From Bacteroidales bacterium (GTDB lineage: Bacteria > Bacteroidota > Bacteroidia > Bacteroidales > UBA932): 64,000 bases of DNA. Shown here piece by piece: positions 3,001 to 18,445 of the stretch; within the stretch, counting starts at the first letter, position 1; every line of letters begins with the position of its first letter. The stretch is from the NCBI GenBank assembly GCA_017527415.1, contig JAFXQA010000008.1:62001-126000 (forward strand), written 5' to 3'. The notes beneath the pieces are model-generated. The model was not told the DNA's origin. It saw only the letters and a list, made by a program, of their open reading frames with translations, and searched no databases. The position numbers and the translations under genes are program-made.

Positions 3001-3638
3001 CCCTTGTGGTATCTGACGTAATAATGCCGGAGATGGATGGAATCGCCCTTACAAAGGCATTGAAGGGCAATCTGGCCACAAGTCACATCCCGGTTATTCT
3101 GCTGTCGGCCGAAGTCCCGGACGTATTCATGCAGGAAAGTCTGGAGGGCGGAGCCGATGCCTACCTGGAGAAACCGTTCTCTCCGAAGAAACTGCGCAGT
3201 ACGGTGGATAACCTCATCGAAAACCGCAAAAGGGTGTACGAGTTCTACATCTCGTCGCTCCCTTCTGGCGGGGAACTTCCCACCGGGAGGGTATCGGCTA
3301 TGGAACGGAAGTTCCTCCGGAGCATCCAGGAATATGTATCAACCAATCTGCACAAGAACATCACCATAAACGATATAGCCGAAAGGGTTTGTATGTCGCC
3401 CTCCTCCTTATACAATAAGATGAAGGAGTATGCCGATATCTCCCCTATGGAGTACGTGATGAAGATGCGTCTTCACAAGGCAGTGGAACTGCTCAAGGAC
3501 GATTCCATATCGGTACAGGAAGTGGCGTTGGCAGTGGGCTTCAACACCCATTCCTTCTTCTCCGAGTGCTTCAAGCGCGAATTCGGCATGACTCCGCGCC
3601 AGTGGAGGGTCCGCAACGTGTCAAAACAGATGAAATAA
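3..3638 (+). CDS. Hybrid two-component system sensor/regulator (HTCS), 5' partial
   Basis: One-piece sensor and transcription factor that detects a glycan fragment in the periplasm and switches on the adjacent PUL. The frame is open to the left edge, so the N-terminus lies outside the window; the GTG at 93 is only an internal codon. Visible order: propeller blades with repeated W[IAV]GT signatures (nt 3, 132, 741 and onward), a Y_Y_Y-type sandwich (about nt 1740-1990), one membrane segment (about nt 2010-2085), HisKA with phospho-acceptor His in AHEIRTP (nt 2175-2177), HATPase with the DNLLSNSLKYS N-box and GTGLGLS, a receiver with phospho-acceptor Asp (nt 3015-3017) and EKPFSP lysine, and an AraC-type helix-turn-helix (about nt 3330-3625). 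The family assignment is secure. It ends one base before the next ATG, so it is probably co-transcribed with the EEP-GH27 gene. The ligand is not readable from sequence. Confidence 0.97.
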   Translation, partial: WIGTNAGLDLYDGCNIAQVAFPGADYATPPVVFILVEDRSGIIWAGTSEGLYRMDGERLEMRRFDCPELGTAPIRQMCYSKTGFLWVDVKGRNLVRLNTSSGLAETTQVVAETVCCTPEGAVYAITKDGKLYISSDGMSEPECLTPEGGNSIPGADVYRTVAVGRHLLISIENESACTLDLQSMKFEPLPMVSRMRDAIQHSSGELWVAARDGIHVLDSTLALVRVIRPFHDNSFRCLTEDGNGKVWAGTLFEGLAQITQDRIHFRHYSNAFAGGRFKARDFAETPDGRIWIGSDTRGLLCLDPQAGNERSAGQFLPERNITGLMSEGAGLWVGTIDEDIPVTLIDTETGRMTVYPDAGKSAYAFCRDASGRLWIGGKNGFIAGLDRPDGRFTREIFMPASQVCSIICTTDGSVWVASIGGTVYRYSGNVLSTYTIPISNILTDIIEDAGGRVFVTSEGNGLWEYEPGLNIFQPRNNLETRPLKISKETDVSLLWVTGAHGIHVLNPNDSRQLPLIPRKALEVDSFNYSSNFISSDGTLYAGTSDGFICFSAKALREQSSGPAAPVVSSLYTLSSSEDADDNHYICPASLNIGRTVHSFAVNVSTLDYERFPSREIYWKIEGFNDWKPVQGGTFTVYDVPAGKWDLKLKALSLSGEESSETTMGLRVQPPLLLSPVALFLYLLLFVSIAVTLTYFSARRAKVKAAREQERKLLDSKLEFLSSIAHEIRTPLSLVQIPIDALIHKFSGSSDNSVQENLDIMRRNSLKLTVLINELLDFRKLTDSTFQIHPEFLDVRSVLKDAHRRFHPMFLQEGKSLALTLPETPVYCETDVRSLGRIFDNLLSNSLKYSQSRSSIVLSVDGSDAHIIVENDGAILPEEEREKIFQPFYRYEDSSSANVEGTGLGLSTSRQFATLLGGSLSMDDDLKVNRFIFSIPLCVEESSPESALPVVEIKDKSIMVVEDDKDMARVIGEILGESYNIIIASNGRQALQKIESGASPTLVVSDVIMPEMDGIALTKALKGNLATSHIPVILLSAEVPDVFMQESLEGGADAYLEKPFSPKKLRSTVDNLIENRKRVYEFYISSLPSGGELPTGRVSAMERKFLRSIQEYVSTNLHKNITINDIAERVCMSPSSLYNKMKEYADISPMEYVMKMRLHKAVELLKDDSISVQEVALAVGFNTHSFFSECFKREFGMTPRQWRVRNVSKQMK

Positions 3639-3639
3639 T

Positions 3640-5976
3640 ATGTACAAGGTATTCAGCGTCTTTTTTACATTGGTATTGATGCCGTGGCTTTGCTTCGGCC
3701 AGTATGGCGGTGACGGGATTACGGTGGGAACGTTCAATGTGAGATTTCTGGATGACAACCGGCCGGAATATGATTATAAATTCGGAGGACAGCCCTGGCC
3801 GGTACGCCGTCCTGCCGTCAAGGCTTTTTTTGAGCAGGAATCCATGGATATAGTGGGCCTTCAGGAGGTCCGGAGAGCCCAGGCGGCTGATTTGGAAGAA
3901 GATTTGGGAAGGGATTGGTTTATCTATTGCCCCGGGCGTCTCAGCGGGGGCAGGATGGTGCGCACCTCTGACGAGTCTGTCGGCGTGATGTACCGCAAGG
4001 CCCGTTTCAATTTGCTGGACCACGGATGCTTCTGGCTGAGCGAATCTCCCTCAGATACTGCTTCTACGCGCCTAGGACAGTCAAACCCCATTATCACTTC
4101 CTGGCTCCGTCTTGAGGAAAAATCACATCCGGGAAAGGACATCTGGTTCTTCTCAGCGCATATAAGCTGGTCTGTGGATGCCAATCCGAGGCTTCCGGAC
4201 CAGGAGGTCGAGACGCTGCTCGCACAGATTGAGAAATTGACCGGGATAAAACGGGAAGAGTTCAAATCTGCCCCCATATTCCTTGTCGGCGACCTTAACA
4301 ATGCCCCTGAAAAATCCGCAATCCAGACTCTGGCGGGCTGGTTCAACGATGCACGCTTGAGCTGCCCCGAAAACGAATCGACTTCCCGCAAAACATTCAA
4401 TTCCTGGGGAAAGGAGAACTCAGCCGGAATAATAGACTATATCTTCTATGGCGAAGGAAAGCCCGAAGAGTACATAGTGGACAATGCCGCCTATGCCCCG
4501 GACGTGAGCTTTATTTCCGACCATTATCCGGTGCTGATGCGTTTGACCATTCCTCCGGCAAAATACTGTCTTACGCCCCAGGCCCCGCCTCAGCCGCGTT
4601 ACAACGGCCCTGCGGTCCTTGGCGCAAGGCCGGGACATCCGATTTATTTCCGTCTCCCTTTCTCCGGGGACAGGCCTATGAAATTCAGCGCCCGCGGCCT
4701 TCCGAAGGGCCTCAAACTCGACAAGGAGAGCGGAGTCGTAAGCGGAACGGCAGTAAAGGAGGGAAACTATGAGATAAAATGGACCGCCCGCAACAAGGCC
4801 GGAAAAGGAGAGGGAAGCCTGACTCTTAAAGTCGGCGACTCGATAGCCCTCACCCCGCCTATGGGATGGAACAGCTGGAATTGCTGGGGGCTCGAGGTCT
4901 CGCAGGAGAAGGTCACGGCATCCGCCAAAGCCTTGATAGAGAGCGGCCTTGCCGACTACGGCTACAGTTATGTCAACATAGACGACGCTTGGCAGGCCCA
5001 GTCCCGAAGCGAGGACGGAACGCTTCTTCCGAACGAGCGCTTCCCTGACATAGCCGCTCTTGGAGACTGGCTGCACGGAAACGGACTTAAACTTGGAATC
5101 TATTCGTCCCCGGGCGACCGCACCTGCGGTGGTTATCTTGGCTCCCTCGGTCACGAAGAGCAGGATGCCGCCACCTGGAATGCATGGGGCGTGGATTACC
5201 TCAAATACGACCTCTGCGGCTACAGGGCAATCCTGAAAGAAATGGAGTCGGTCGGTCAGGCCGAGCATAAGAAACCGTATCTTGTAATGAAGGAGGCCCT
5301 TCGTAAACAGCCCAGGGATATAGTCTATTCAATCTGCCAGTACGGACTGGAGAATGTCTGGACCTGGGGGCAGGAAGCGGGCGGCAATCTCTGGAGGACG
5401 CACGGTGACCTGACGGACAAATGGGATCGTGTCGTACGCATCGGATTTGTGAAACAACGGAATCTTGCTCCTTTCTCCGGCCCAGGGCACTGGAACGACC
5501 CGGATATGTTGGTAATCGGAAAAGTCGGCTGGGGAGAAGGTCTGCGCGACACGCACCTTACTCCCGATGAACAGTATTCACACGTATCTCTCTGGGCCCT
5601 TCTGGCCGCTCCGCTGATTATCGGCGGAGATTTGTCCTCCATTGATAATTTTACGCTTAACCTTCTCTGCAACAACGAGGTGATAGCCGTGGACCAGGAC
5701 CCTCTCGGGAAGCAGGCTTCCGTGTTATGGGAAAAGGATTCCCTGCAGGTGTGGGGGCGTCCTTTGGGTGACGGGTCGTCCGCAGCCGGAATCTTCAACC
5801 TCGGCGATGAAGCTGCAACCGTTCATGTAAATGTAATCCTTGAGGCGGCAGGTTACACCGGAGTGAGCCGCATTCGGGACCTGTGGCGACAGAAAGCCTG
5901 CCCTGAGGAAACAGTTATTCCCTCACACGGAGTGGTCCTTTTGAAATTCAAAGCGGCCGGCAGCCGTCAAAAATAA
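3640..5976 (+). CDS. Secreted fusion: EEP phosphodiesterase-fold domain + Ig-like linker + GH27 alpha-galactosidase
   Basis: 778 residues with a signal peptide (about 1-20, ending CFGQ). Residues about 26-300 are an endonuclease/exonuclease/phosphatase domain with all metal and catalytic positions: N33 (FNVRF), E76 (LQEV), H174, D218 and N220 (GDLNN), D294-H295 (SDHYPV). Residues about 320-398 look like a putative-Ig (He_PIG) linker. From about 402 (TPPMGWNSWN) to about 690 is a GH27 barrel with probable nucleophile D524 (YLKYDLCG) and acid/base D620 (WNDPDM), then a C-terminal beta-sandwich. GH27 removes alpha-galactose, in some members beta-L-arabinopyranose. The EEP fold cleaves phosphodiester or phosphomonoester bonds in DNA, sphingomyelin or inositol phosphates; its substrate here is unknown. 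The protein would act in the periplasm. It starts one base after the regulator gene, unlike the other enzymes, which follow susCD. Confidence 0.93.
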   Translation: MYKVFSVFFTLVLMPWLCFGQYGGDGITVGTFNVRFLDDNRPEYDYKFGGQPWPVRRPAVKAFFEQESMDIVGLQEVRRAQAADLEEDLGRDWFIYCPGRLSGGRMVRTSDESVGVMYRKARFNLLDHGCFWLSESPSDTASTRLGQSNPIITSWLRLEEKSHPGKDIWFFSAHISWSVDANPRLPDQEVETLLAQIEKLTGIKREEFKSAPIFLVGDLNNAPEKSAIQTLAGWFNDARLSCPENESTSRKTFNSWGKENSAGIIDYIFYGEGKPEEYIVDNAAYAPDVSFISDHYPVLMRLTIPPAKYCLTPQAPPQPRYNGPAVLGARPGHPIYFRLPFSGDRPMKFSARGLPKGLKLDKESGVVSGTAVKEGNYEIKWTARNKAGKGEGSLTLKVGDSIALTPPMGWNSWNCWGLEVSQEKVTASAKALIESGLADYGYSYVNIDDAWQAQSRSEDGTLLPNERFPDIAALGDWLHGNGLKLGIYSSPGDRTCGGYLGSLGHEEQDAATWNAWGVDYLKYDLCGYRAILKEMESVGQAEHKKPYLVMKEALRKQPRDIVYSICQYGLENVWTWGQEAGGNLWRTHGDLTDKWDRVVRIGFVKQRNLAPFSGPGHWNDPDMLVIGKVGWGEGLRDTHLTPDEQYSHVSLWALLAAPLIIGGDLSSIDNFTLNLLCNNEVIAVDQDPLGKQASVLWEKDSLQVWGRPLGDGSSAAGIFNLGDEAATVHVNVILEAAGYTGVSRIRDLWRQKACPEETVIPSHGVVLLKFKAAGSRQK

Positions 5977-6030
5977 ATAATCGTTGCAATTGTATAAATA
6001 ATTACTGTAGCAACTTGCGGCTGTCCGGGT

Positions 6031-6038
6031 TATTTTTG
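6031..6038 (+). promoter_or_regulatory. Candidate -7 element (TATTTTTG) for susC
   Basis: Exact match to the Bacteroidota -7 consensus TAnnTTTG, 26 bases before the susC ATG in the only sizeable gap of the PUL. No good -33 TTTG at the usual spacing of 19-21 was found, as is common for activator-dependent PUL promoters. It would let susC onward be transcribed apart from the regulator gene. Confidence 0.5.
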
Positions 6039-6064
6039 CATCAAATAGTTATTCGGATAACCAT

Positions 6065-9000
6065 ATGCAACGTTTTGTTTCATCATTACTGCTGGCTTTC
6101 TTTGCCGTAACCGGCTTCGCACAGTCACTGACGGTCACCGGCGTCGTCCTGGATGCCGCCACCGGTGAGACTGTTATCGGAGCCGGGGTATTCGTCAAGG
6201 GAACATCCAGCGGAACAGTCACGTCCATTGACGGACAGTTTTCGATTTCAGCCTCCAACGGGCAGGAAATTGTCGTCTCATCACTGGGATACAAAGACTA
6301 CACTTTCACAGTCTCCGGCCCTGGTCCCGTAGAAGTCAGGATGGCCTCTTCTGCCGAGTTCCTGGATGAGGTGGTTGTCGTAGGTTACGGCACCGCGAAA
6401 AGGGCGAACCTTACCGGTGCAGTAGACCAGGTTTCCTCGGAAGTGTTCTCGGGGCGTCCGTCATCGAACGCCACCCAGATGCTTGTGGGGGCAATCCCCA
6501 ACCTGAATATCACGCTTTCTGACGGCAAGCCAAGCCGCAGCGCCGATTACAACATCCGAGGCACCACCTCGGTGGGCGGCGGCGGCAATGCATTGGTGCT
6601 CATAGACGGTGTTGAAGGCGATCCGGCCCTGCTTAACCCGGACGACATCGAGAGCGTCTCCGTGCTGAAGGATGCGGCCTCGGCTTCCATCTACGGCTCC
6701 AGGGCAACGTTCGGCGTAGTTCTTATAACAACCAAGAGCGCATCGAACGAAGCGGGTAAATTCAATTTCAGCTATAACGAGAACCTCTCCTTCCTGACGC
6801 CGAGCAATCTTCCGAACATTGTCGATGACGGATATGTATATGCGAAGCTGTTCAGGGATGCATATTACAACTATTGGGGCGTGGAGCCCTCCGGAATGAA
6901 CACAAGTCAGGAGTTTTCGCAGGCATGGCTGGATGAATTTCTTCGTCGCAAGCAAAAGGGAATCACCGATGAAGTGGATGTGGACGAGAGCGGAAGATAT
7001 GTTTACTACGGTAATACCAATTACTACAAAATTATATACAAGCCCTATACGATGGCCCGCACGCACAACCTTTCCGCAAGCGGTACGTCCGGGAAAATCG
7101 ACTACTACGTATCGGGCCGCATTTACAAGTACGACGGCATCCTGAATTTCAACCCGGACGAATATTTTACGACAGCTCTGCGTTCCAAAATCACGGCCCG
7201 CCCGTTCCCCTGGCTGAAAATTTGGGAAAACATCTCCTTCAACTACGAAAAGAATCATATCCCTGCCAGCCATAACCAGAACAACAACGGTCTGTTCCTT
7301 CGCAGCATGCAGGACGAGGGCCACGTGAGTGCTCCAGTTTTCAATCCCGACGGAACCTTCACCAAGAGCGGCGCAATGGCAATCGGCGGTCTGGTTACCG
7401 GGAAGAATTATACCGATAAATTCCGGAACAACCTGACCACTACGACAGGGGCACGTGCAGAATTTTTCGACCATACCCTCAGGCTCAACGCAGACTTCTC
7501 CTTCAAGGCGAACTGGGAGAACAACCTCAAAAAGAACACTATGGTCGCCTACAGTGAGGCTCCGGGAGAAATTACCTGGAGGGGGACACCCGGCGTGAAC
7601 GACTTTATTCAGGAGTATTGGCTCCGCAGCAGCTATATTTCGACCAATACCTATGCAGAGTATGCAAAAGTTTGGAACAACAAGCACGATTTCAAGGTCC
7701 TGGCCGGCTTCAACTGGGAACAATACGCATCGAAGTCGTTCCAGATGTTGCGTTACGGGCTCATATCCGAGGATGTGGGATCCATCAATATGGCTATGGG
7801 AGACAACTTTACTGAGTATTCATACGAGGGCCGGTGGAAGAGCGCAGGATTGTTCGCCAGGCTCAATTATTCTTACGATGAACGCTATCTGCTTGAACTC
7901 AACGGACGTTACGATGGGTCTTCCAAGTTCCCGACCAATCAGCAGTGGGGCTTCTTCCCGTCCGCCTCGGCAGCCTGGAGAGTCTCCAAGGAGCACTGGT
8001 GGCACGTGAACCCGTCCATCGTATCCAACCTCAAACTGCGGGCCTCATGGGGCCAGCTCGGTAACGGAAACGTATCGGAGTATTCATTTGTGGAGAGGTT
8101 CGGTTTCTCCAACCTCAGCAACATCATAGATGGTGAAGGCAAGAGGCGCATAACCTCGATACCGAGCCAGATTCCGGACAACCTGACTTGGGAAACGTCC
8201 AGGACCATAGACGGAGGTATCGACATCGGTTTCTATAACGGAAAGATCAACTTTACCGGCGACTATTACGTGCGCAATACACTGAATATGTACACTGTGG
8301 GCCCGTCACTGCCGGACACCTACGGCGCCAGTGCACCCAAGGGCAATTATGCCGACCTGGTCACCCGCGGCTTCGAACTCTCACTGAGTTACGACGATGC
8401 ATTCCCACTTGGCGGCCACGACCTCAATTTCGGGATCAAGGCCACACTTGCCGACAACCGTTCCTTCATCACCCGCTACAACAACCCGTCAAAGTCTCTG
8501 AATGACTATTACGAAGGGCAGGAAATCGGTGAAATCTGGGGATTCAAATTCGTGGGGTTCTTCGATGACGAAAACCAGATCAACAATTACTACGGCCCCG
8601 GGGACCCTTATGTGAACAAGCTCATCCAGATTAACGAGGGATACATATCAAGGCCGGGCGACGTAATCCTGGAAGACAAAAACGGCAACCACCAGATTGA
8701 CAAGGGCGCCCAGACCGCGCTCGATCCGGGCGATATGGAAATCGTGGGAAACAAGCACCCGCGATATCACTACTCCCTCTCGCTGAATCTGGAGTGGAAC
8801 GGATTTTACGCGTCCGCCATGTTCCAGGGAATAGGCAAACAGGACTGGTATCCGAGCGGCGAATCCATTATCTGGGGCCAGTACCACAGGCCATACGGAA
8901 ATGCACTGGCCTGGACGGTCAACAATGCCTGGACTCCGGAACACCGCGATTCCTTCCTCCCCAAATACAGCGGATATTATCGCATATTCTTCTCGGGGCA

Positions 9001-9301
9001 GCACAAAGTGGACCGCTATGTTCTGAACGCCGCATACTGCCGGCTCCAAAACCTGCAGGTCGGTTGGAACATACCTTCAAAGTGGGTAAAAAAGATAGGT
9101 GTTAGCGCTGCCAGCATTTATTTCTCGGGAGAAAACCTGTACACCTGGTCTCCTTTGTACAAACTGACTACGGATGTTGATGTCGTCACCGCCACACACG
9201 GATCCGATGTAGACCTGGGCAACGGCACCGACAACTTTGGCGACGGCAACAGCCTTACATCCCTGCGGACGTTCTCGCTTGGTATAACCATTAAAATCTG
9301 A
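6065..9301 (+). CDS. SusC/RagA-family TonB-linked outer membrane transporter
   Basis: 1078 residues, usual size for the family. Signal peptide about 1-19 (ending GFAQ), then a carboxypeptidase-regulatory-like domain (about 23-95: TGVVLDAATGETVIGAGVFVKG), the conserved VVVGYG segment, a plug domain (about 118-225, with NIRGT, LVLIDGV and DIESVSVLKDAASASIYGSRA) and a long beta-barrel to the C-terminal ITIKI. It would import oligosaccharides across the outer membrane with energy from TonB, with SusD as lid. A 5-base gap leads to susD. Sugar specificity is not readable from sequence. Confidence 0.97.
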   Translation: MQRFVSSLLLAFFAVTGFAQSLTVTGVVLDAATGETVIGAGVFVKGTSSGTVTSIDGQFSISASNGQEIVVSSLGYKDYTFTVSGPGPVEVRMASSAEFLDEVVVVGYGTAKRANLTGAVDQVSSEVFSGRPSSNATQMLVGAIPNLNITLSDGKPSRSADYNIRGTTSVGGGGNALVLIDGVEGDPALLNPDDIESVSVLKDAASASIYGSRATFGVVLITTKSASNEAGKFNFSYNENLSFLTPSNLPNIVDDGYVYAKLFRDAYYNYWGVEPSGMNTSQEFSQAWLDEFLRRKQKGITDEVDVDESGRYVYYGNTNYYKIIYKPYTMARTHNLSASGTSGKIDYYVSGRIYKYDGILNFNPDEYFTTALRSKITARPFPWLKIWENISFNYEKNHIPASHNQNNNGLFLRSMQDEGHVSAPVFNPDGTFTKSGAMAIGGLVTGKNYTDKFRNNLTTTTGARAEFFDHTLRLNADFSFKANWENNLKKNTMVAYSEAPGEITWRGTPGVNDFIQEYWLRSSYISTNTYAEYAKVWNNKHDFKVLAGFNWEQYASKSFQMLRYGLISEDVGSINMAMGDNFTEYSYEGRWKSAGLFARLNYSYDERYLLELNGRYDGSSKFPTNQQWGFFPSASAAWRVSKEHWWHVNPSIVSNLKLRASWGQLGNGNVSEYSFVERFGFSNLSNIIDGEGKRRITSIPSQIPDNLTWETSRTIDGGIDIGFYNGKINFTGDYYVRNTLNMYTVGPSLPDTYGASAPKGNYADLVTRGFELSLSYDDAFPLGGHDLNFGIKATLADNRSFITRYNNPSKSLNDYYEGQEIGEIWGFKFVGFFDDENQINNYYGPGDPYVNKLIQINEGYISRPGDVILEDKNGNHQIDKGAQTALDPGDMEIVGNKHPRYHYSLSLNLEWNGFYASAMFQGIGKQDWYPSGESIIWGQYHRPYGNALAWTVNNAWTPEHRDSFLPKYSGYYRIFFSGQHKVDRYVLNAAYCRLQNLQVGWNIPSKWVKKIGVSAASIYFSGENLYTWSPLYKLTTDVDVVTATHGSDVDLGNGTDNFGDGNSLTSLRTFSLGITIKI

Positions 9302-9306
9302 CGGTT

Positions 9307-11154
9307 ATGAAAAACTATATGATATTGATCGCCACCTTGGGTGCATTAAGCCTATCTTCCTGTTCCCTCGAAGAACTGCCCGTGACTTCCGGGGATAAGG
9401 CTCTGGTATTCGGCTCCGCACAGGGTCTGGAGGCATATTCTCTCTCTTTCTACAAACAGCTTCCGTCGCTGAGCGAACTGACCAGCGCAGAAGGAACTTC
9501 GGATTATGGAGTTGCAAAAAGCGTAAGCACCTTCTACACCAGCGCATACACGGCTGAAACCTCCACATCCTGGGGCTGGGGCAACCTCCGTACGGTCAAT
9601 TATTTTATCGACGGCATCCACAGCGACATCTGCACCGTTTCGCAGGCAGACAAAGACCATTATGAAGGCCTCGCCCGCTGGTTCAGGGCATACTTCTACT
9701 ACAACAAACTCTTCAAATACGGCGGCGTACCTTGGTTCGACCACTGCCTTAAGAATAACGAGTTTGACGAAATGTACAAGAACAGGGATTCCCGTGACGT
9801 AATCATCGGACATATCATCGAAGACCTTGACTTTGCGGCGGAGCATATCAGGACGACTTCGTCCAAGGGCAGTACGCGCATTTCGAAGAATGCAGCCTAT
9901 GCACTCAAGAGCAGGGCCTGCCTGTATGAAGCGTCCTGGCGCAAGTACCATAATGAAGAGACTTCGGAATGGACGGCCGCTAAACTGTACCGCCTGGCTG
10001 CAGATGCCGCGAAAGTGCTCATCGACAACCCTCTGGTGAAGCTGAACACCAAGGTATGTGCAGATGCTTACTTGACCGACAATCCGTCACTGGGTGCATA
10101 CAGGAGCCTTTTCTACTCCAAGGACATACTCACCGACGAGGTGATCCTCGGCGTACAGGCATCCCTCATCGACCTGGTGACCGGCGACGCCAACTGGTAC
10201 TGGACTTCCCCCACCTATGGCGGATGTCCCTGTCTTTCCAGAGCGTTTATATTCACCTACCTGTGCACGGACGGTACCCGTTTCACGGATAAGCCCGCGT
10301 ACAAGGCCATAAACTTCATCAATGAATTCACCGGCCGTGACGCCCGCCTGGCCCAAACCGTCAAGGGGCCCAGGTATGAGATAAAGGGCGGAAATTGGCG
10401 GGACCGTCGTCCCAACATAGTGGACGGGGTTGCAGTCACCGGCTACCAGCCCATCAAGTTTATTGAGGATTCGACGGAAAAGAACGGGACCTCCAAGAAC
10501 GAGAACAGCCAGCCCGTTTTCCGTTATGCCGAGGTCCTGCTCAACTATGCCGAGGCAAAGGCAGAACTTGGAGAACTCACCGATGACGATTGGGCCGTCA
10601 CAATCGGCGCCCTGCGTCTTCGTGCCGGTTTCCAGGACAAGCCGGGTGTCACTTCCTCCAGACCCACATCGGTCGATACTTATCTGAAGGAAACCTTCTA
10701 CCCCGACATCAACGACCCCGTAATCCTCGAAATCCGCCGCGAAAGGGCGATAGAACTTGTTTATGAGGGCTTCCGTGCCGACGACCTAAAACGCTGGAAG
10801 GAAGGCAAGAACTTCGAGCGGGTGCCCTGGACGGGTATTCACGTGCCTGCCCTGGATGCCCAGTTCTCGGTAAATGACGACGACACCAAGGACTTCTACG
10901 TAACATACGATGAATACGGCGATGTGCCAAGCTACGCCCAGAACAAATACGTTCGCGTGTATCCGGAGAGCTCCACTGAGCAGGGACTCCGCCTGGACGA
11001 GAATCCCGACGGTGGCTACGACCTCCGCTATGAGGTTATCATCAAACGCAAATGGTACGATGACGACCGCCAGTATCTTAATCCCATTCCCGCCGAAGTA
11101 ATACGGGACTATGAAAACCACGGATACAAACTTGACCAGAACCCTGGATGGTAA
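9307..11154 (+). CDS. SusD/RagB-family glycan-binding lipoprotein
   Basis: 615 residues with a lipoprotein signal and lipobox LSSCS (Cys about residue 19), so a surface-exposed lipoprotein. The body shows SusD features: an early AYTAETSTSWGWGNLRTVN region, a helix-rich N-terminal half with ARWFRAYFYYNKLFKYGGVPW, the RYAEVLLNYAEAKAEL motif near the middle, and the C-terminal IRRERAIELVYEGFRADDLKRWK signature followed by YLNPIPAEVI. It pairs with the SusC gene just upstream to capture oligosaccharides. It has an average-to-long length for the family. The next gene starts almost immediately downstream. Confidence 0.97.
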   Translation: MKNYMILIATLGALSLSSCSLEELPVTSGDKALVFGSAQGLEAYSLSFYKQLPSLSELTSAEGTSDYGVAKSVSTFYTSAYTAETSTSWGWGNLRTVNYFIDGIHSDICTVSQADKDHYEGLARWFRAYFYYNKLFKYGGVPWFDHCLKNNEFDEMYKNRDSRDVIIGHIIEDLDFAAEHIRTTSSKGSTRISKNAAYALKSRACLYEASWRKYHNEETSEWTAAKLYRLAADAAKVLIDNPLVKLNTKVCADAYLTDNPSLGAYRSLFYSKDILTDEVILGVQASLIDLVTGDANWYWTSPTYGGCPCLSRAFIFTYLCTDGTRFTDKPAYKAINFINEFTGRDARLAQTVKGPRYEIKGGNWRDRRPNIVDGVAVTGYQPIKFIEDSTEKNGTSKNENSQPVFRYAEVLLNYAEAKAELGELTDDDWAVTIGALRLRAGFQDKPGVTSSRPTSVDTYLKETFYPDINDPVILEIRRERAIELVYEGFRADDLKRWKEGKNFERVPWTGIHVPALDAQFSVNDDDTKDFYVTYDEYGDVPSYAQNKYVRVYPESSTEQGLRLDENPDGGYDLRYEVIIKRKWYDDDRQYLNPIPAEVIRDYENHGYKLDQNPGW

Positions 11155-11171
11155 ATAAAAAGAATAAAGCA

Positions 11172-13724
11172 ATGAATGCACTGAAACTTATAGCAACCGG
11201 CCTGTCCCTTGCCCTGCTGTTGCCTTCCTGCTACAAGCCGCAACAGCTTGATTATAGTAACTGGTACACCGTCGAGAAAGATGATGGAGACCCGCTTCCC
11301 AGCGAAGATGTCAAGGGTCTTATGATAATGTCCTCGAACGTTCGTTATTACTCCGCCCGAAACAAGGCGGATGACCCCGATGTCGGAGACCGCGACTGGG
11401 AGGTTCGCAAGAAAGGCTACTTCCAGATGGTGAATACCATGCAGCCTATGGTAATCGGACTCCAGGAGGCCGAGATGAATCAGGTCACGGACATTGTCGC
11501 CAACTGCAAAGGGTACTCTTTTGTTGGCGTCGGCCGCAATGACGGAGCTCAGAAGGGCGAATCGACATCGATCCTGTACAAGAATGGTGATATTCAGTTA
11601 GAGGACTGGGGTACGGTATGGCTGTCTCCCACGCCTGATGTTGTGGCGAGTTATTTCCCTGAAATGACCGACGGGCAATACGGGCAGAGCCGCACCGCGA
11701 CCTGGGCCATTCTTACAGCCAAGGAAAGCGGGCGCCGGTTCTTCTACATCAACACACACTTCAGCCTGTACTCGGCATCCCAGCCCAGGGAAGTCCAGGT
11801 TATATTGAACACTGTGAGTGAAAAATGCCCTGCCGGGCTTCCGGTCGTGCTGTCGGCAGACTGGAACCTTGAAGAGACGGATCCGATACTGGCCCCAATA
11901 CTGGAAAGTTACACCAGTGCCAGGCAGACCGCACCTCTCACAGACAACATCGAAACGTTCCATTGGTGGGGCAGTCAAAGCACGATTTCCAAGCACCAGC
12001 ATCTGGACCACATCTTCTGGTCCGGATTTGAAAAGTGCCTCCGATTCCGCACCCTCAACATGAAGTGGGAAAAACTGTGGATATCCGACCATCATCCGGT
12101 ATATGCAATCTTCCAGTTCAAGACAGGCTCCACCGAAAAACAAAAGCCTGTTGCCGACTTCGAGATTCCCGCAAACCCCAAGATGGACGAAACCATCAGG
12201 TTTACCGACAAATCCACATCGGAGGACGGCATCGAGGTGTGGGAATGGAATATCGGCGGTATCGTTTCCTCCGCACAGAACCCGGAGGTAATGTTCAACA
12301 CCTATGGCGATAACATCCCTGTAAGCCTCACTGTTACAGACCATTATGGCCAGAAGGCAACCGCTTCCAAAACCTTCTCCGTCGCGCTCTCGGAAGGGCA
12401 CGACCTCACCATAGAGTGGAGCAAGCTCTATGACGATACTACCGACGGAAAGGGGACAGCCGTCGCGGACTGGACGGCTCCTGCCGTAACTCCTGCAGGC
12501 GACAAAATCTATGTCGCATCTTCCGGTTATCATATAGTCGGATTTAATCCTGACGGCAGCCTTTTCGGTTCCTACGATATCGGTAAACGCGAACCGTGCA
12601 TTACCGACCGCGACATCCAGACGCCGACTCCGTCCATCGATGCCCAGGGCAATGTTTACATTCCCGTTCAATATGGTTATAGCGAAAGCGGTCACGGAGG
12701 CCTGTACTCCATCAAGCCTGACCTTTCCGACGAGAACTGGTACCACGACACCGGAAACACCTCGCAGTACCGTAATACGATTCCGGCCATTATAGGAGAC
12801 TACGTCGCAGTGGTCCTTACGAACAACGGGAATGATCTTACTACAAATGCAGCGATATTCAGGCGCTCCAATGGCTCGCTGGTCCAATGCCTTACCTGCG
12901 ACAAGGGCTCCTGGGGCGGTATGGCCGTGGGGTATAAGGGCGAGCTTGTTTATGCCACCAATCGCGGCGGGACCAAACAGGGACGCGAACCAGGCACCGA
13001 ATCCGGAGGAGGATACCACGTATCTCCGGTTGACGGCGCCATCGGCAGCTGGAAATCTTCTCCCAACAGCGACGACGGACGCAAGACAAACCTTCTTGGA
13101 ATGCGCCATTCCGACGGCAACGGCTACCTCACAAAGGCCGGCCAGCCTGCTGTGGGAACCGACCATTGCGTCTATATCTGCTCCACCAGCAACAACGAGA
13201 ACATGATTTGCGCCAAATACAACCTTGACAATTACGTATTCGGATCCGCACCGACTCCCATCTGGAAGGTTGAACTGGAAACCCACTCCAACAGCGGTGT
13301 CCTCGGTCTCGGTTGCGTGCTTGACGCTCAAGGGAACGCCTACTTCCGCGCTGCGGAGAAGGTATTCCGGCTGGACGCCAGGACCGGCGCCATGGGTTGG
13401 GTTTACAATACTGAAGGCAATTACAACACCGGAGTCCCGGCCATTGACGCATTGGGTTATGTATATGTGGTCGATTATGGCGGGAACAAACTGCTCAAGC
13501 TCTCTTCTGCGGACGGCAAACTCATTTCCTCCGTAGAGCTCGAAAATCCGAGGACCAGCCCTACAATCGGTCCGGACGGAACCATTTATGTGACTGGCAG
13601 CTCTTCGCAAGGTGCCATACTCTACAAGATCAAATGCCAGAAGACAACAGCCCCCGGGCCCAACTGGTCGCAGCTCGGAGGAAATCCCCAGAAGACCGGG
13701 ACGCCTCAAGGTGCCAACTTCTAA
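11172..13724 (+). CDS. Lipoprotein with EEP domain, PKD domain and PQQ-like beta-propeller
   Basis: About 850 residues from ATG 11172. An ATG at 11148 overlaps the susD stop, but the 11172 start gives a clean lipoprotein signal with lipobox LLPSC. Residues about 48-320 form an EEP domain with N56, E99 (LQEAE), H196 (NTHF), D230 and N232 (ADWN) and D306-H307 (SDHHPV), so catalysis looks intact. Residues about 330-415 match a PKD domain (VADFEIPANPKMDETIRFTD). The rest is a PQQ-like propeller with repeated blade strands such as DKIYVASSGY and NVYIPVQYG. PQQ-like propellers often bind partners or ligands, so the propeller may dock the EEP domain to substrate. It is paralogous to the gene at 13879. 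The position right after susD suggests a surface role in the PUL. Confidence 0.88.
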   Translation: MNALKLIATGLSLALLLPSCYKPQQLDYSNWYTVEKDDGDPLPSEDVKGLMIMSSNVRYYSARNKADDPDVGDRDWEVRKKGYFQMVNTMQPMVIGLQEAEMNQVTDIVANCKGYSFVGVGRNDGAQKGESTSILYKNGDIQLEDWGTVWLSPTPDVVASYFPEMTDGQYGQSRTATWAILTAKESGRRFFYINTHFSLYSASQPREVQVILNTVSEKCPAGLPVVLSADWNLEETDPILAPILESYTSARQTAPLTDNIETFHWWGSQSTISKHQHLDHIFWSGFEKCLRFRTLNMKWEKLWISDHHPVYAIFQFKTGSTEKQKPVADFEIPANPKMDETIRFTDKSTSEDGIEVWEWNIGGIVSSAQNPEVMFNTYGDNIPVSLTVTDHYGQKATASKTFSVALSEGHDLTIEWSKLYDDTTDGKGTAVADWTAPAVTPAGDKIYVASSGYHIVGFNPDGSLFGSYDIGKREPCITDRDIQTPTPSIDAQGNVYIPVQYGYSESGHGGLYSIKPDLSDENWYHDTGNTSQYRNTIPAIIGDYVAVVLTNNGNDLTTNAAIFRRSNGSLVQCLTCDKGSWGGMAVGYKGELVYATNRGGTKQGREPGTESGGGYHVSPVDGAIGSWKSSPNSDDGRKTNLLGMRHSDGNGYLTKAGQPAVGTDHCVYICSTSNNENMICAKYNLDNYVFGSAPTPIWKVELETHSNSGVLGLGCVLDAQGNAYFRAAEKVFRLDARTGAMGWVYNTEGNYNTGVPAIDALGYVYVVDYGGNKLLKLSSADGKLISSVELENPRTSPTIGPDGTIYVTGSSSQGAILYKIKCQKTTAPGPNWSQLGGNPQKTGTPQGANF

Positions 13725-13729
13725 TACCT

Positions 13730-13870
13730 ATGAAGAAAGAATATATATCCCCCTCCACACAACTGATTCCGATAGTTGAAACCAGCAGGCCCATTTGCGC
13801 CAGCGTCAATAACCTGATGCAACTTGAAGAAAAAAATGATCTCGAGGGTTTTGGTTGGAACTATAATTAG
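13730..13870 (+). CDS. Small 46-residue peptide of a Bacteroidales KKxYxxP type
   Basis: A short reading frame of 46 codons (starts MKKEYISPSTQLIPI, ends GFGWNYN) fills the gap between two paralogous EEP genes, 5 bases after one stop and 8 bases before the next ATG, so it must be co-transcribed. It has an N-terminal KKxYxxP stretch, a hydrophobic middle with a single Cys (PICAS) and an acidic, aromatic C-terminus. Peptides of this general look are widespread in Bacteroidales near secreted proteins, usually annotated as hypothetical; this is from general knowledge, not a search. No function is assigned. Its fit between neighbours and the intact frame argue that it is real. Confidence 0.6.
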   Translation: MKKEYISPSTQLIPIVETSRPICASVNNLMQLEEKNDLEGFGWNYN

Positions 13871-13878
13871 CGGACGGT

Positions 13879-16800
13879 ATGAAAAAGTTCTGTTTATTCG
13901 CTTTTGCGCTCCTCGTGGCATGCACTCAGGAGCCGCTTGTTGAGCCGGCCGCCCCTGAAACCTCCAGTTTTGAGGCCAATATTTCACAACCTTCGGAAAA
14001 TGCCACCAAAACCGTCCTGGGAGCAAAGAACGGTACTTACTATCCCAATTACTGGGCAGCTGGTGACGCCATTTCCGTGAACGGCGTCACCTCCACGGCC
14101 CTGGAGGCCGGTTCCGAATATGTCGGGACCAGCAAGGCGGTATTTACGATTACAGGCGACATCAACGCCCCGTACAATTTTGCATACCCCGCTGCCTTCG
14201 TCTCGAATTACAGTTCCGGAAGCGCAAGAATCACCCTTCCCGCAACTCAGAATATGTCTTCGGACACTTACGATGCGTCAGCGTTCGTCATGGTCGGCAG
14301 CGGCAGTTCCGGTTCCCTGACCTTCAATCCCATGATGGCAGCCATCAAGCTTACCGTCCCCGGCACTTACGACGCAAAGATATCATCCATGATGTTCGAA
14401 AGCCTCGGGAGCGAGAAGGTCAGCGGACCTTTCACCACCGACTTCAACAGCATCACGGCGGCATCCGGAGCCACTTCCAGGGTCGTCGTATATGCGCCGG
14501 GAGACGGTCTGGCCTTCGGCAACAGTATGTATGTGCTCATTCCTGCGCAAAACTATGCCAGCGGAATGCGTTTCACCGTACGGGCCACCGACGGCACGCA
14601 GATGACATTCTCAACTAACTCTTCGTTCAATGCCCTGGCCGCAAAAGTGTACACCCTCACATCCCAGGCCTATACTCCGGCACCGGACACCATTCCCGAG
14701 GGCATGATGATTATGTCGTCCAACGTCCGTTTCGCATCTGCCCGCGACAAGACCAACAACCCCGACACCGGCGACCGCGACTGGACAAACCGCAAGAGCG
14801 CATATTACGCCATGGTCAATTACTACCGTCCGGCGGTAATCGGCCTGCAGGAAGCGGAGAAAGAGCAAGTGAGGGATATAAAAAACAATTGCAGCGGCTA
14901 TGGCTACTATGGCCTTGGCCGCAAGAACGGCAAGGATATTCTCGCAGACGACAGTTACTGGGGCCTTATCCCCGGCTCGCAGGACGGCGAGGAATCCAGC
15001 ACCATCCTCTACCGGACAGACCTTATCACCCTCAACAGTTCCGGTACTATCTGGCATTCCAACTCGCCGACGACAGCTAACTCTAAATTCAGTGAAATGG
15101 AAGACGGTGTACCGCAGACATCGACTTGGGCAATTATGACCTATAAGCCGACGAATACGCAGTTCTTCCTTCTGAATACCCATCCAAGCATCTACAGCGC
15201 GGCGCACTCCAAGGAAATCAGCCTGATTCGCAGTACCATCTCCAGCAAGAATACGGGAAATCTTCCTGTCATCCTTACCGGAGACTGGAACATGGAAGAA
15301 GACGATTCTGCGATGACTCCGATTGACAACAATTATTACAGCGCCCGCTGGCACGCACAGAAGACGGATTACTACGAAACCTTCCACTGGTGGGGTACCC
15401 GTTCCGAGCAGATCGACCATATATACTATAACGGGATCAGTACCTGCTACATGTTCCGCACCGACAAACGCAAGTGGAACGACAAGTATGTCTCCGACCA
15501 TTATCCGGTATTCGCCGTGTTCGATATGAGCGGCGGTGCACCGGCCGTGCCCGTTGCCAATTTCGACCTGCCTGCCGATGCCAGGATAGATGAAACACTC
15601 ACCTTCACCGACCGTTCCACCTCCTCCGCCGGAATCGCATACTGGGAGTGGGATATCGACGGGATCCGTTCCAACGAGCAGAATCCCCAGATCGTCATCA
15701 AGGGCATCAAGGAAAATGTACCCGTCAGGCTGACCATCACGGACAACAACGGAGAGACAGCCACTGCCACCAAACTCCTTTCTGTGGAAAGCTCGGCGGA
15801 TCACCAGCTTACGGCATCGTGGCGCAAGGTGTACGACAGCACTCTGGAAGCAACCGCCTACTGGACTTCCCCTGCGGTATCCCAGGGAGGAGACCGGATT
15901 TACGTTTCATCCTCCGGTTATCACCTGGTAGGTTTCAATTCGTCCGGCACCCAGGTCGGCAGTTTCGACATCGGGCAGTACGGCGCCGCTATCAGCGGAA
16001 GCAAGAACTGTCAGACCTGTACTCCGTCAATTGACGTTGAGGGCAATGTCTATATTCCTGTGCAGTATTCCACAGGTGCAGGCGGTAACGGCGGCTTGTT
16101 CTGCATCCGCCCGAATATGACCGAGAAATGGTATGTGACAACGGGTGAGAATTCAACCTATCGGGCAACCATTCCTGCTGTCTTCGGCGCTTACGTGAGC
16201 GTAATGACGCGTAATATTGACGAAGGTCTCTTTGCCACCAACATGATTATCCTCAACCGCAGTGACGGTAGTCTCAGGCAGACGCTTTCCTGCGACAAGG
16301 GCTCATACGGCGGCATGGCCGTGAGCGCAGACGGGAAACTGGTGTTCGGTTCTGCCCGTGGCGGCGCTTCCTCCGGTACAGCAACCGGAACAGAGACAAG
16401 CGGTGGCTACAAGGTCGCAGTGATCGACGGTGGATTCGGAAGTTGGAAGACCTCATCCAACAGCGATTCCGGCCGTGCTACTAACTTCCTGGGCATGACT
16501 CATACTGACGGCAACGGCTACCTGACAAAGGGCTTCCAGCCGGCGATTTCCACCATTGACGGTAGCGTATATGTATGCGCCACGACCACCAATGATAATA
16601 TGATTGTCGCCCGGTACAACTTGAACGCTTATATTTACGGCTCTGCACCCTCGCCTATTTGGAAAGTGGAAGTGGAAGCGGCCGCCAATAACTTCGGCCT
16701 TGGCTGTGTGCTTGATGACGACGGCAACGCCTATGTCCGTGCTGCCGACAAGATTTTCAAGCTCAACGCCGCCGACGGCTCTCTGGCTTGGTCACGTGAC

Positions 16801-17178
16801 ACCGGAACAGGCAACTGCGGTGTTCCCGCCATCGACAATCTGGGGTATGTCTATGTTAACGACAGCGGCAAGAGACGCCTGCTGAAGCTCTCGCCTCAGG
16901 ACGGTTCACTTGTCTCACAGTTTTTATTCAACAATGCCCAGCCAAGGACAAGCCCTACAATCGACTATAACGGCAATATATACGTGACTTGTACTTCCAT
17001 CGATGACGAGGGCGCCGTCCTCTACAAAATAACCTGCCCGAGGACAACGGGCCCCGGCGCCAACTGGTCGCAACTCGGCGGCAACCCGATGAAGAATTGC
17101 ATGGTTCCCGGCGCCACAGAACCTTACAACAGCACAGGATCTTCGCGTGAAGACTATACCCCCGTAAACATCTACTGA
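13879..17178 (+). CDS. Lipoprotein with fimbrillin-like N-terminus, EEP domain, PKD domain and PQQ-like propeller
   Basis: 1099 residues. Lipoprotein signal with lipobox LVACT (Cys about residue 15). Residues about 30-265 resemble a fimbrillin/Mfa-like beta-sandwich (ATKTVLGAKNGTYYPNYWAAGDAISVNG, split here by description only), absent from the paralogue at 11172. Residues about 273-555 are an EEP domain with N282, E325, H435 (NTHP), D469 and N471 (GDWN) and D540-H541 (SDHYPV). PKD follows at about 560-650 and a PQQ-like propeller fills the rest, with clear blade-by-blade similarity to the 11172 protein (for example the shared SGYH, TPSIDxxGNVYIPVQY and RTSPTI segments). It is probably surface anchored, with the extra N-terminal domain acting as spacer or adhesin. 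Its stop codon overlaps the next start (TGATG). Confidence 0.87.
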   Translation: MKKFCLFAFALLVACTQEPLVEPAAPETSSFEANISQPSENATKTVLGAKNGTYYPNYWAAGDAISVNGVTSTALEAGSEYVGTSKAVFTITGDINAPYNFAYPAAFVSNYSSGSARITLPATQNMSSDTYDASAFVMVGSGSSGSLTFNPMMAAIKLTVPGTYDAKISSMMFESLGSEKVSGPFTTDFNSITAASGATSRVVVYAPGDGLAFGNSMYVLIPAQNYASGMRFTVRATDGTQMTFSTNSSFNALAAKVYTLTSQAYTPAPDTIPEGMMIMSSNVRFASARDKTNNPDTGDRDWTNRKSAYYAMVNYYRPAVIGLQEAEKEQVRDIKNNCSGYGYYGLGRKNGKDILADDSYWGLIPGSQDGEESSTILYRTDLITLNSSGTIWHSNSPTTANSKFSEMEDGVPQTSTWAIMTYKPTNTQFFLLNTHPSIYSAAHSKEISLIRSTISSKNTGNLPVILTGDWNMEEDDSAMTPIDNNYYSARWHAQKTDYYETFHWWGTRSEQIDHIYYNGISTCYMFRTDKRKWNDKYVSDHYPVFAVFDMSGGAPAVPVANFDLPADARIDETLTFTDRSTSSAGIAYWEWDIDGIRSNEQNPQIVIKGIKENVPVRLTITDNNGETATATKLLSVESSADHQLTASWRKVYDSTLEATAYWTSPAVSQGGDRIYVSSSGYHLVGFNSSGTQVGSFDIGQYGAAISGSKNCQTCTPSIDVEGNVYIPVQYSTGAGGNGGLFCIRPNMTEKWYVTTGENSTYRATIPAVFGAYVSVMTRNIDEGLFATNMIILNRSDGSLRQTLSCDKGSYGGMAVSADGKLVFGSARGGASSGTATGTETSGGYKVAVIDGGFGSWKTSSNSDSGRATNFLGMTHTDGNGYLTKGFQPAISTIDGSVYVCATTTNDNMIVARYNLNAYIYGSAPSPIWKVEVEAAANNFGLGCVLDDDGNAYVRAADKIFKLNAADGSLAWSRDTGTGNCGVPAIDNLGYVYVNDSGKRRLLKLSPQDGSLVSQFLFNNAQPRTSPTIDYNGNIYVTCTSIDDEGAVLYKITCPRTTGPGANWSQLGGNPMKNCMVPGATEPYNSTGSSREDYTPVNIY

Positions 17179-18440
17179 TGAGAAAAACATTACTTGTTCT
17201 GGTCGGCACCCTGGCCCTGACTGCGTGCGGCAGGCAACTGCCTCCCTTCCCGGAGGTTGGAGAGCCGTACGCTATCACCCAAGGACCGGAAGACCATTTC
17301 CTCGCCAACTATTTCGGTATAAACGCTTGGAGCCCTGACGGCCGCTATGTTTGCGTGTTGGGTACGGATTTCACCGGACGGCTGGCTGAAGAGACGGATA
17401 CGGCGACGGTTGCACTGGTTGACCTGGCCGACAGCTGTCGCTATATCCCAATCAGCCGTACCACCTGCTGGAATTTTCAGGAAGCGGCGATGTTCCACTG
17501 GATTCCCTGGGAAGACGGCCTTTGTGCCTTCAACGACTTCCGTGACGGCCATTTCGTGACCGTGCTCCTCAATTGGAAGACCGGTGGCGAGCGGATTGTA
17601 TCCAGGCCGGTGAGCGCCGTTGATCCTACCGGCGAATGGGCCGTCAGTCTGAATTACGCCCGCCTGAGGGTATGTCGCCCCGACTATGGCTATGCCGGGT
17701 ACGGACAGGACCCTCTGCTCGATGAGGTCTGGCCGGAGGACGACGGACTATGGCTGATCAACCTCAAGACTAGGGAAGAGAAGCTTCTGTTGTCGGTCGC
17801 CGATGCCCGGAGTCTGATGCCGGAAATCACTTCTGACGATGGTCTGGCTTATTTCTGCCATACCATCATCAGCCCGGACGCAAGCAAGATATTCTTCCTT
17901 GCTCGCACGGTGGAAGGGTTTAAGGCGCAATTGGCCGAACGAGGTTACATCTATAACTGGGATACGGTATCCTTAACCATCAACACTGATGGAACAAATC
18001 TCCGGCGCTGTTTCCACGACGGATGGAAGGGCTCCCATTTTAATTGGAAAGACAGCGAAACACTGGCTGTAACAGCCCGATGGGACGGCGAAGGTTGCTG
18101 GGCGCACACAGTCTTCAAGGTGGGAGAAGAGGAAAACGTGCGCCATCTTGCTCCCGGCATCATGGACTGGGACGGACACTGCGTTTTCTCTCCGGACGGA
18201 CAGTTCCTGAGCAGCGAGGGCTACTGGAACAAGGACGGCTACCGCAGCTGGGTGCTCTTGCGTCTGGAAGATGAAGCAATCATCTCCCTCGGTCGATTCT
18301 TAGTGCCTGATAATTATAAGGAGCAATACTCCCGGTGCGACCTTCACGCCCGCTGGCGGCCCGACGGCAGTCAGTTGGCATTTAACTCCGTACACGAGGG
18401 CAGCCGGCAGGTATATATCAGAAACGTAAAATGGAAATAG
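17178..18440 (+). CDS. Beta-propeller lipoprotein, TolB/oligogalacturonate-lyase-like
   Basis: 420 residues with a lipoprotein signal and lipobox LTACG (Cys about 17). Blade-like repeats with SPDG motifs occur throughout (NAWSPDGRYV near 45, IISPDASKIFF near 232, CVFSPDGQFLSSEG near 335, ARWRPDGSQLAFNSVHEG near 398). The arrangement, with conserved His-bearing loops near the C-terminus (DWDGHCVFS, CDLHARWRP), recalls the seven-bladed PL22 oligogalacturonate lyases, which cleave short oligouronides. That is a fold-level resemblance, not proof of activity. A uronide lyase role would fit the neighbouring beta-glucuronidase. It begins inside the TGATG overlap with the previous gene, so translation is coupled. 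A non-catalytic binding propeller is the alternative. Confidence 0.6.
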   Translation: MRKTLLVLVGTLALTACGRQLPPFPEVGEPYAITQGPEDHFLANYFGINAWSPDGRYVCVLGTDFTGRLAEETDTATVALVDLADSCRYIPISRTTCWNFQEAAMFHWIPWEDGLCAFNDFRDGHFVTVLLNWKTGGERIVSRPVSAVDPTGEWAVSLNYARLRVCRPDYGYAGYGQDPLLDEVWPEDDGLWLINLKTREEKLLLSVADARSLMPEITSDDGLAYFCHTIISPDASKIFFLARTVEGFKAQLAERGYIYNWDTVSLTINTDGTNLRRCFHDGWKGSHFNWKDSETLAVTARWDGEGCWAHTVFKVGEEENVRHLAPGIMDWDGHCVFSPDGQFLSSEGYWNKDGYRSWVLLRLEDEAIISLGRFLVPDNYKEQYSRCDLHARWRPDGSQLAFNSVHEGSRQVYIRNVKWK

Positions 18441-18445
18441 TTACT

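Follow-up and report, generated by a model that had tools for sequence, protein, structure and literature searches.

The window analysed here, a stretch of 64,000 nucleotides from a Bacteroidales bacterium (G000:C19:62001-126000; genome of 1.14 Mb, 67% complete), opens with a 21.6-kb cluster of co-directional genes, from a hybrid two-component system (HTCS) regulator through a GH2 enzyme, in which three genes encode EEP domains. With a SusC gene adjoining a SusD gene, glycosidases and a local regulator, this cluster qualifies as a polysaccharide utilization locus (PUL). The three EEPs are probably glycan phosphoesterases, which would remove or cleave phosphate esters of the glycan imported by the same locus, beside SusCD and four glycosidase-family genes. 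Supporting facts are the domains themselves, their intact catalytic residues, their kinship with the BT3783 group, EEP-glycosidase fusions, and a phosphodiesterase-family gene upstream of the window. The fusions constitute the strongest evidence for a role on glycans: EEP is found on the N- or C-terminus of GH27, and on GH2, GH78 and GDPD. Because relatives fuse EEP to several predicted glycosidases, the EEPs are likely to remove glycan phosphate links. The EEP proteins and their main domains are the following.

3640..5976, + strand: EEP - He_PIG - GH27 - Melibiase_C fusion, 778 aa (PF03372, 48.3 bits)
3703..4569, + strand: EEP domain of the GH27 fusion, residues 22-310 (model pLDDT 91)
4852..5700, + strand: GH27 catalytic domain, residues 405-687, alpha-galactosidase-like (aligns with alpha-galactosidase 1uas)
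11148..13724, + strand: EEP - PKD-like - PQQ propeller protein, 858 aa, lipobox-like start (PF03372, 28.9 bits)
11304..12137, + strand: EEP domain of the first propeller protein (model pLDDT 94)
13879..17178, + strand: N-terminal region - EEP - PQQ propeller protein, 1099 aa, lipobox-like start (PF03372, 46.6 bits)
14689..15546, + strand: EEP domain of the second propeller protein (Pfam, catalytic residues)

A preliminary description of this sequence had reported three EEP genes in one PUL with intact catalytic residues, and both statements hold. All three genes exceed the PF03372 cut-off of 24.5 bits within one co-directional SusCD cluster, and the named residues are all present: N33/E76/H174/D218/N220/D294-H295 in the EEP-GH27 protein, N64/E107/H204/D238/N240/D314-H315 in the first EEP-PQQ protein (N56 becomes N64 and so on, the start codon being set 8 residues further upstream), and N282/E325/H435/D469/N471/D540-H541 in the second. 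Profile scores above cut-off, together with the conserved N, E, H, D-x-N, D and D-H, place the domains in the EEP superfamily. A wider set of 194 EEP domains from retrieved loci and proteins yielded 175 distinct ones after one of less than about 200 residues was dropped and duplicates were removed; all eight catalytic positions are intact in 174 of them. The sole exception, L035:6998-7993, has lost catalytic residues; it lies in the region L035:5241-10701, where a two-EEP protein precedes further EEP-like genes. Outside the EEP domains, the PKD match of the first propeller protein falls below the Pfam cut-off, and relatives of the second show a PF13149 match in the N-terminal region.

The genome contains nine EEP matches in its 1.14 Mb, six of them on contig C19. 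When nine matches were placed at random on a single line of 1.14 Mb, 3.4% of trials put three of them within 14 kb of each other, and 0.016% produced two three-EEP clusters of this kind; the genome actually contains two. At 54% identity, the second EEP protein is a paralogue of the third, so that the three EEPs are not independent events. Across six same-genus genomes, 27 of 70 EEP genes lie within 10 kb of SusD versus 12.4 expected (p 3e-5), the expected values being based on rounded genome sizes and contigs C5 and C13 of G032, apparently the same stretch, being counted twice.

By profile search and structure comparison, the window EEPs are nearest to a Bacteroides group that includes BT3783; these two approaches carry the placement, the tree described below having no characterised DNases or phosphatases among its tips. 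A profile built from 37 EEP domains (A3) best matched 3mpr, 4c1r, 3g6s and 3l1w (3e-64 to 5e-50), followed by nocturnin (1.2e-15), TDP2 (2.6e-12), CNOT6L (4e-12) and ExoIII (2.6e-5). AlphaFold2 models of the EEP domains of the first propeller protein (P0005, pLDDT 94) and of the GH27 fusion (P0002, pLDDT 91) retrieved 3mpr, 3g6s, 4c1r and 3l1w as top structures, and the same four entries head all four profile and structure lists, well separated from those that follow. The PDB title of 4c1r names the mannosyl-6-phosphatase Bt3783.

The EEP-GH27 order of the window recurs in 26 of the 120 homologues listed out of 4238 (73-95% identity); 91 of those 120 have no EEP domain, and three (P0067, P0070, P0073) combine another N-terminus (jelly-roll-like by eye) with GH27 and a C-terminal EEP. 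In a midpoint-rooted FastTree phylogeny of the 175 distinct domains, the EEPs of window-type EEP-GH27 proteins form a 31-tip clade (support 1.0), and those of the C-terminal type group with EEP-GDPD and GH78-EEP (6 tips, support 0.997). These two separate positions of GH27-linked EEPs indicate at least two joining events between EEP and GH27. Also inside the 31-tip clade is L053:15277-17901, a GH2 whose C-terminal EEP shares 72% identity with the one that the window's GH27 carries; the two EEPs are orthologous, and the GH2-EEP protein represents a partner change inside one locus type. The assembly of L053 also carries a GH27 without EEP (L077). The GH2-EEP fusion is repeated in P0207 (873 aa, 94%), the representative of a cluster with 29 member sequences, making a one-off assembly error in L053 less likely. 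Other EEP partners are GH78, GDPD, GDSL, DUF6259 and a second EEP, and EEP and PQQ occur as separate adjoining genes in L070, L072, L073 and L076. The DUF6259 proteins with a C-terminal EEP lie at L034:5857-8796 and L036:7515-10544; DUF6259 may be an undescribed glycosidase type.

Pfam matches also bear out the SusC, SusD, GH27, GH39 and GH2 assignments, the GH2 enzyme having been called a beta-glucuronidase in the preliminary description, and confirm the HTCS. The remaining genes of the cluster are:

3..3638, + strand: HTCS hybrid two-component regulator with Reg_prop, HisKA, HATPase, Response_reg and HTH_18 (Pfam)
6065..9301, + strand: SusC-type TonB-dependent transporter (Pfam)
9307..11154, + strand: SusD-type surface glycan-binding lipoprotein (Pfam, lipobox-like start)
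17178..18440, + strand: PD40/WD40-like propeller protein, lipobox-like start (Pfam)
18431..19873, + strand: GH39 (Pfam)
19873..21642, + strand: GH2, beta-hexuronidase-like, with the NxK motif (DFNRKG) (Pfam, motif)

The HTCS gene is truncated by the window start, its complete open reading frame being G000:C19:61853-65638. Two genes precede it upstream of the window (L012, C19:58000-66000): one encodes a PF01663 type I phosphodiesterase-LamG protein that begins with a lipobox-like sequence, the other a GH63/MGH1-like enzyme. We count both as locus members because their homologues in genome G004 (L029, L030; 67% and 79% identity) sit inside the locus, between HTCS and SusC; with the PF01663 gene added to the EEPs, the locus thus encodes phosphoesterase-type proteins of two superfamilies. 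These two upstream genes, the PQQ propellers on two EEP proteins and the PD40 propeller gene are features beyond the preliminary description. The PD40 protein had no solved-structure match at 0.1, and the GH63-like gene resembled GH63 glucosidase, trehalase and YgjK only weakly. Judged by eye, lipobox-like starts are present in the EEP-PQQ, PD40, SusD and PF01663 proteins, and none was seen in the EEP-GH27, GH39 or GH2 proteins.

In GH27 enzymes, the Asp residues of the KYD and GD motifs are catalytic, and those of the window's GH27 align with alpha-galactosidase 1uas. The Glu of the CEWG motif is replaced by Gln, so that the preferred sugar is uncertain. The He_PIG and GH27 part aligns over 414-415 residues with the alpha-galactosidase-type structures 4ogz and 4nzj, presumably Bacteroides chains, starting at window residue 318 and leaving the EEP part unmatched. 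A beta-L-arabinopyranosidase was considered for this GH27 and is less likely, its best solved matches being named alpha-galactosidases and the arabinopyranosidase entries scoring about 1e-30. The window's GH2 matches the hexuronidase-type structures 6d1n and 6d89, which we take to be from Bacteroides uniformis, over nearly its full length (E 2e-194 and 1e-188); its orthologue in L053 differs from them in carrying the C-terminal EEP. Two reports describe NxK as a motif of GH2 hexuronidases (PMC12243196; PMC10162664). This motif is present in the window and in 11 of 17 loci scanned, the misses being L029 and L055 (both cut), L057, L058, L064 and L069. Among solved structures, GH39 comes closest to a glucosidase and to beta-xylosidases.

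These assignments suggest a division of labour in which capture and the first cuts would be performed by lipoproteins at the cell surface. The two EEP-propeller proteins may be surface lipoproteins whose propeller parts hold the polymer, while the EEP opens it or strips its phosphate before import through SusCD. EEP-GH27, acting on smaller pieces, would remove the phosphate blocking its alpha-galactosidase, and could finish degradation in the periplasm together with GH2 (as a beta-hexuronidase), GH39 and the GH63-like enzyme. Given the NxK-bearing GH2 and the alpha-galactosidase-like GH27, the target should bear uronic acid, alpha-galactose and phosphate. The locus may thus be directed at an acidic, alpha-galactosylated, phosphate-bearing rumen heteroglycan, which would most plausibly be a polymer of the microbial cell envelope. 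Fitting candidates are polymers of the teichuronic or teichoic type and, from rumen bacteria, phosphorylated exopolysaccharides or capsules; other polymers could fit as well. The preliminary description had proposed a phosphodiester-containing or lipid-linked target: EEP fusions to glycan-active enzymes and the PF01663 phosphodiesterase favour the phosphate, and neither lipid linkage, as in glycosyl inositol phosphoceramide (GIPC), nor a teichoic-acid-like polymer is singled out.

Related loci were sought in one genome per species with patterns from the EEP-PQQ protein alignment, a scan that may have left out records near the window's genome and that returned 30 loci from 23 assemblies. Sample titles name rumen, reticulum or omasum for 11 of the 30, 16 bear RUG/RUI labels, which we take to denote rumen, and 3 are silent. 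The nearest named genomes are metagenome-assembled genomes (MAGs); the related loci stem mostly from rumen MAGs, and the window's bacterium is likely rumen-derived. Fifteen of the 30 qualify as recurring loci, defined as SusC, EEP-PQQ and at least three other members, with matches below 38% identity dropped. They contain HTCS (15), EEP-PQQ2 (15), SusD (14), EEP-PQQ1 (14), PD40 (14), GH39 (12), GH63-like genes (10), GH2 (10, plus one GH2-EEP) and GH27 without EEP (6; locus-edge fragments in L062 and L065 leave the EEP status unreadable). These counts are lower bounds, as many loci are cut and longest-frame calling lost genes to antisense frames (L059, L060, L065, L071). A calcineurin-like phosphoesterase stands beside GH2 in L064, and a similarly sized gene at the matching place in L069.

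Several observations weigh against glycan phosphoesterases as the function of the EEPs. At only about 25% identity, BT3783 is too distant for its activity to be transferred to the EEP domains. A THxDH motif (Asp-His two residues past the catalytic His) occurs in 8 of 23 aligned EEP domains, including GH27-EEP, GH78-EEP and EEP-GDPD types; it is missing from the window's three EEPs, suggesting that the pockets may differ. Within 5 kb of SusD, the six genomes show no clear enrichment, with 10 of 70 EEP genes versus 6.6 expected (p 0.12). EEP-GH27 is found in only 2 and PF01663-LamG in only 3 of the 15 recurring loci, and the PF01663 gene matches solved structures only weakly (8e-5 at best), with both phosphodiesterases and sulfatases among the nearest. 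Full-length GH27s lack EEP in L055, L057, L064, L066, L068 and L069, and in L048, a MAG with about 98% identical DNA to the window genome over HTCS, the EEP-GH27 gene survives only in fragments (L048:4340-4920), through decay or misassembly; from both, the EEP of EEP-GH27 appears dispensable. Finally, no phosphoglycan with both uronic acid and alpha-galactose was identified.

We also weighed three other functions for the EEPs. By cutting the lipid end of a glycolipid, such as plant GIPC or a glycosylated phospholipid, they could free the glycan head group. This appears unlikely: profile A3 reached beta-hemolysin entries at 3.9e-9, 3.6e-8 and 8.9e-6, entries named sphingomyelinase at 8.6e-6 to 6e-3 and human neutral sphingomyelinase at 1.6e-3, compared with 3e-64 for the BT3783 group, and the profile search thus revealed no close relation to sphingomyelinases. 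In addition, GH2 hexuronidases cut beta links, whereas the uronate of GIPC is alpha-linked. That BT3783 was deposited as a phosphatase, and that nocturnin, the next relative by profile, is an NADP(H) phosphatase, would agree with phosphate scavenging, in which the EEPs and the PF01663 protein free phosphate from small phosphosugars, inositol phosphates or nucleotides accompanying the glycan, and glycan breakdown is independent of them. We nonetheless hold this to be improbable, given the covalent fusion of EEP to GH27, GH2 and GH78 domains and the HTCS as the regulator adjoining the locus.

The preliminary description had put forward DNA released with the glycan as the simpler target. Extracellular nucleases degrading glycan-adherent DNA or RNA would make use of a fold common to DNase I, TDP2 and CNOT6L, but this role is very improbable. 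DNase gamma matched at 1.4e-4 and DNase I at 2.2e-4 or weaker (five DNase entries, 1.4e-4 to 0.097), versus 3e-64 to 5e-50 for the BT3783 group, making DNA less likely; the profile search found no close relation to either DNase. DNase I is not among the best 50 structure matches listed for either EEP model, which by itself is no exclusion. NCBIfam gave no match at 1e-3 for P0002 or P0005, and P0006 matched only far below cut-off. The repeated EEP-glycosidase fusion likewise argues against nucleases.

EEPs are not new to PULs, BT3783 of Bacteroides thetaiotaomicron being a precedent. BT3783 belongs to the same EEP subgroup by profile and structure and, like the window EEPs, is said to stand beside SusCD and glycosidases. 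The solved chain is one 290-residue EEP domain, whereas the window has three EEPs fused to GH27 or propellers. Cuskin et al., in 2015, reportedly placed BT3783 in a yeast-mannan PUL. Such PULs are defined by the alpha-mannosidase families GH92, GH76, GH38 and GH125, none of which was matched by Pfam in the nine window genes or the two upstream genes. The titles listed by a limited literature search included neither multi-EEP PULs nor exchangeable EEP-glycosidase fusions, few subscription papers being covered, so that absence in print is not shown. The suggestion that this PUL is of an unrecognised type thus stands for the exact gene set within that search; it is weakened by BT3783 being already known and by multi-EEP SusCD loci recurring in the genus.

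SusCD loci with at least two EEP genes (L009, L033, L034, L036, L040) resemble that of the window, and L045 likewise has SusCD, next to an EEP that is joined with another phosphodiesterase. By contrast, their partners include weak heparinase II/III and GH88, NAGLU, GH28, GH92, alkaline phosphatase and GDPD. A bolder and rather doubtful extension is that, in rumen Bacteroidales, EEP is an interchangeable module docked on whichever glycosidase meets phosphate, and that these loci eat a class of phosphate-bridged acidic glycans not yet described as food in the rumen. If true, phosphate esters would be a common lock on rumen glycans for which Bacteroidales evolved a dedicated, exchangeable key, and a phosphoesterase class would join the targets of PUL annotation. 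The fusions point to enzyme pairs for substrate-finding assays.

In the window's own genome, the second SusCD locus (C19:1-19544, L009) has three EEP matches; in L009:1-19544, two genes encode an EEP alone and a third encodes a 1153-aa protein that ends in an EEP, accompanied by an fn3 protein, a GH39 and a protein whose heparinase II/III match is sub-threshold. L040 combines two EEP proteins with NAGLU, GH28 and a pectinesterase-GDSL protein, and L041 combines GH78-EEP with a calcineurin-like phosphoesterase, a GH27-like protein and a rhamnosidase-type protein. The genes scanned in L045 (237-9231) encode GH92, alkaline phosphatase, ROK kinase and EEP-GDPD; a GH63-like gene is also in the locus, and EEP and GH63-like genes are common to L045 and L046. 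From the domains of L045, these two look like a candidate phosphomannan or glycerophosphate-glycan locus.

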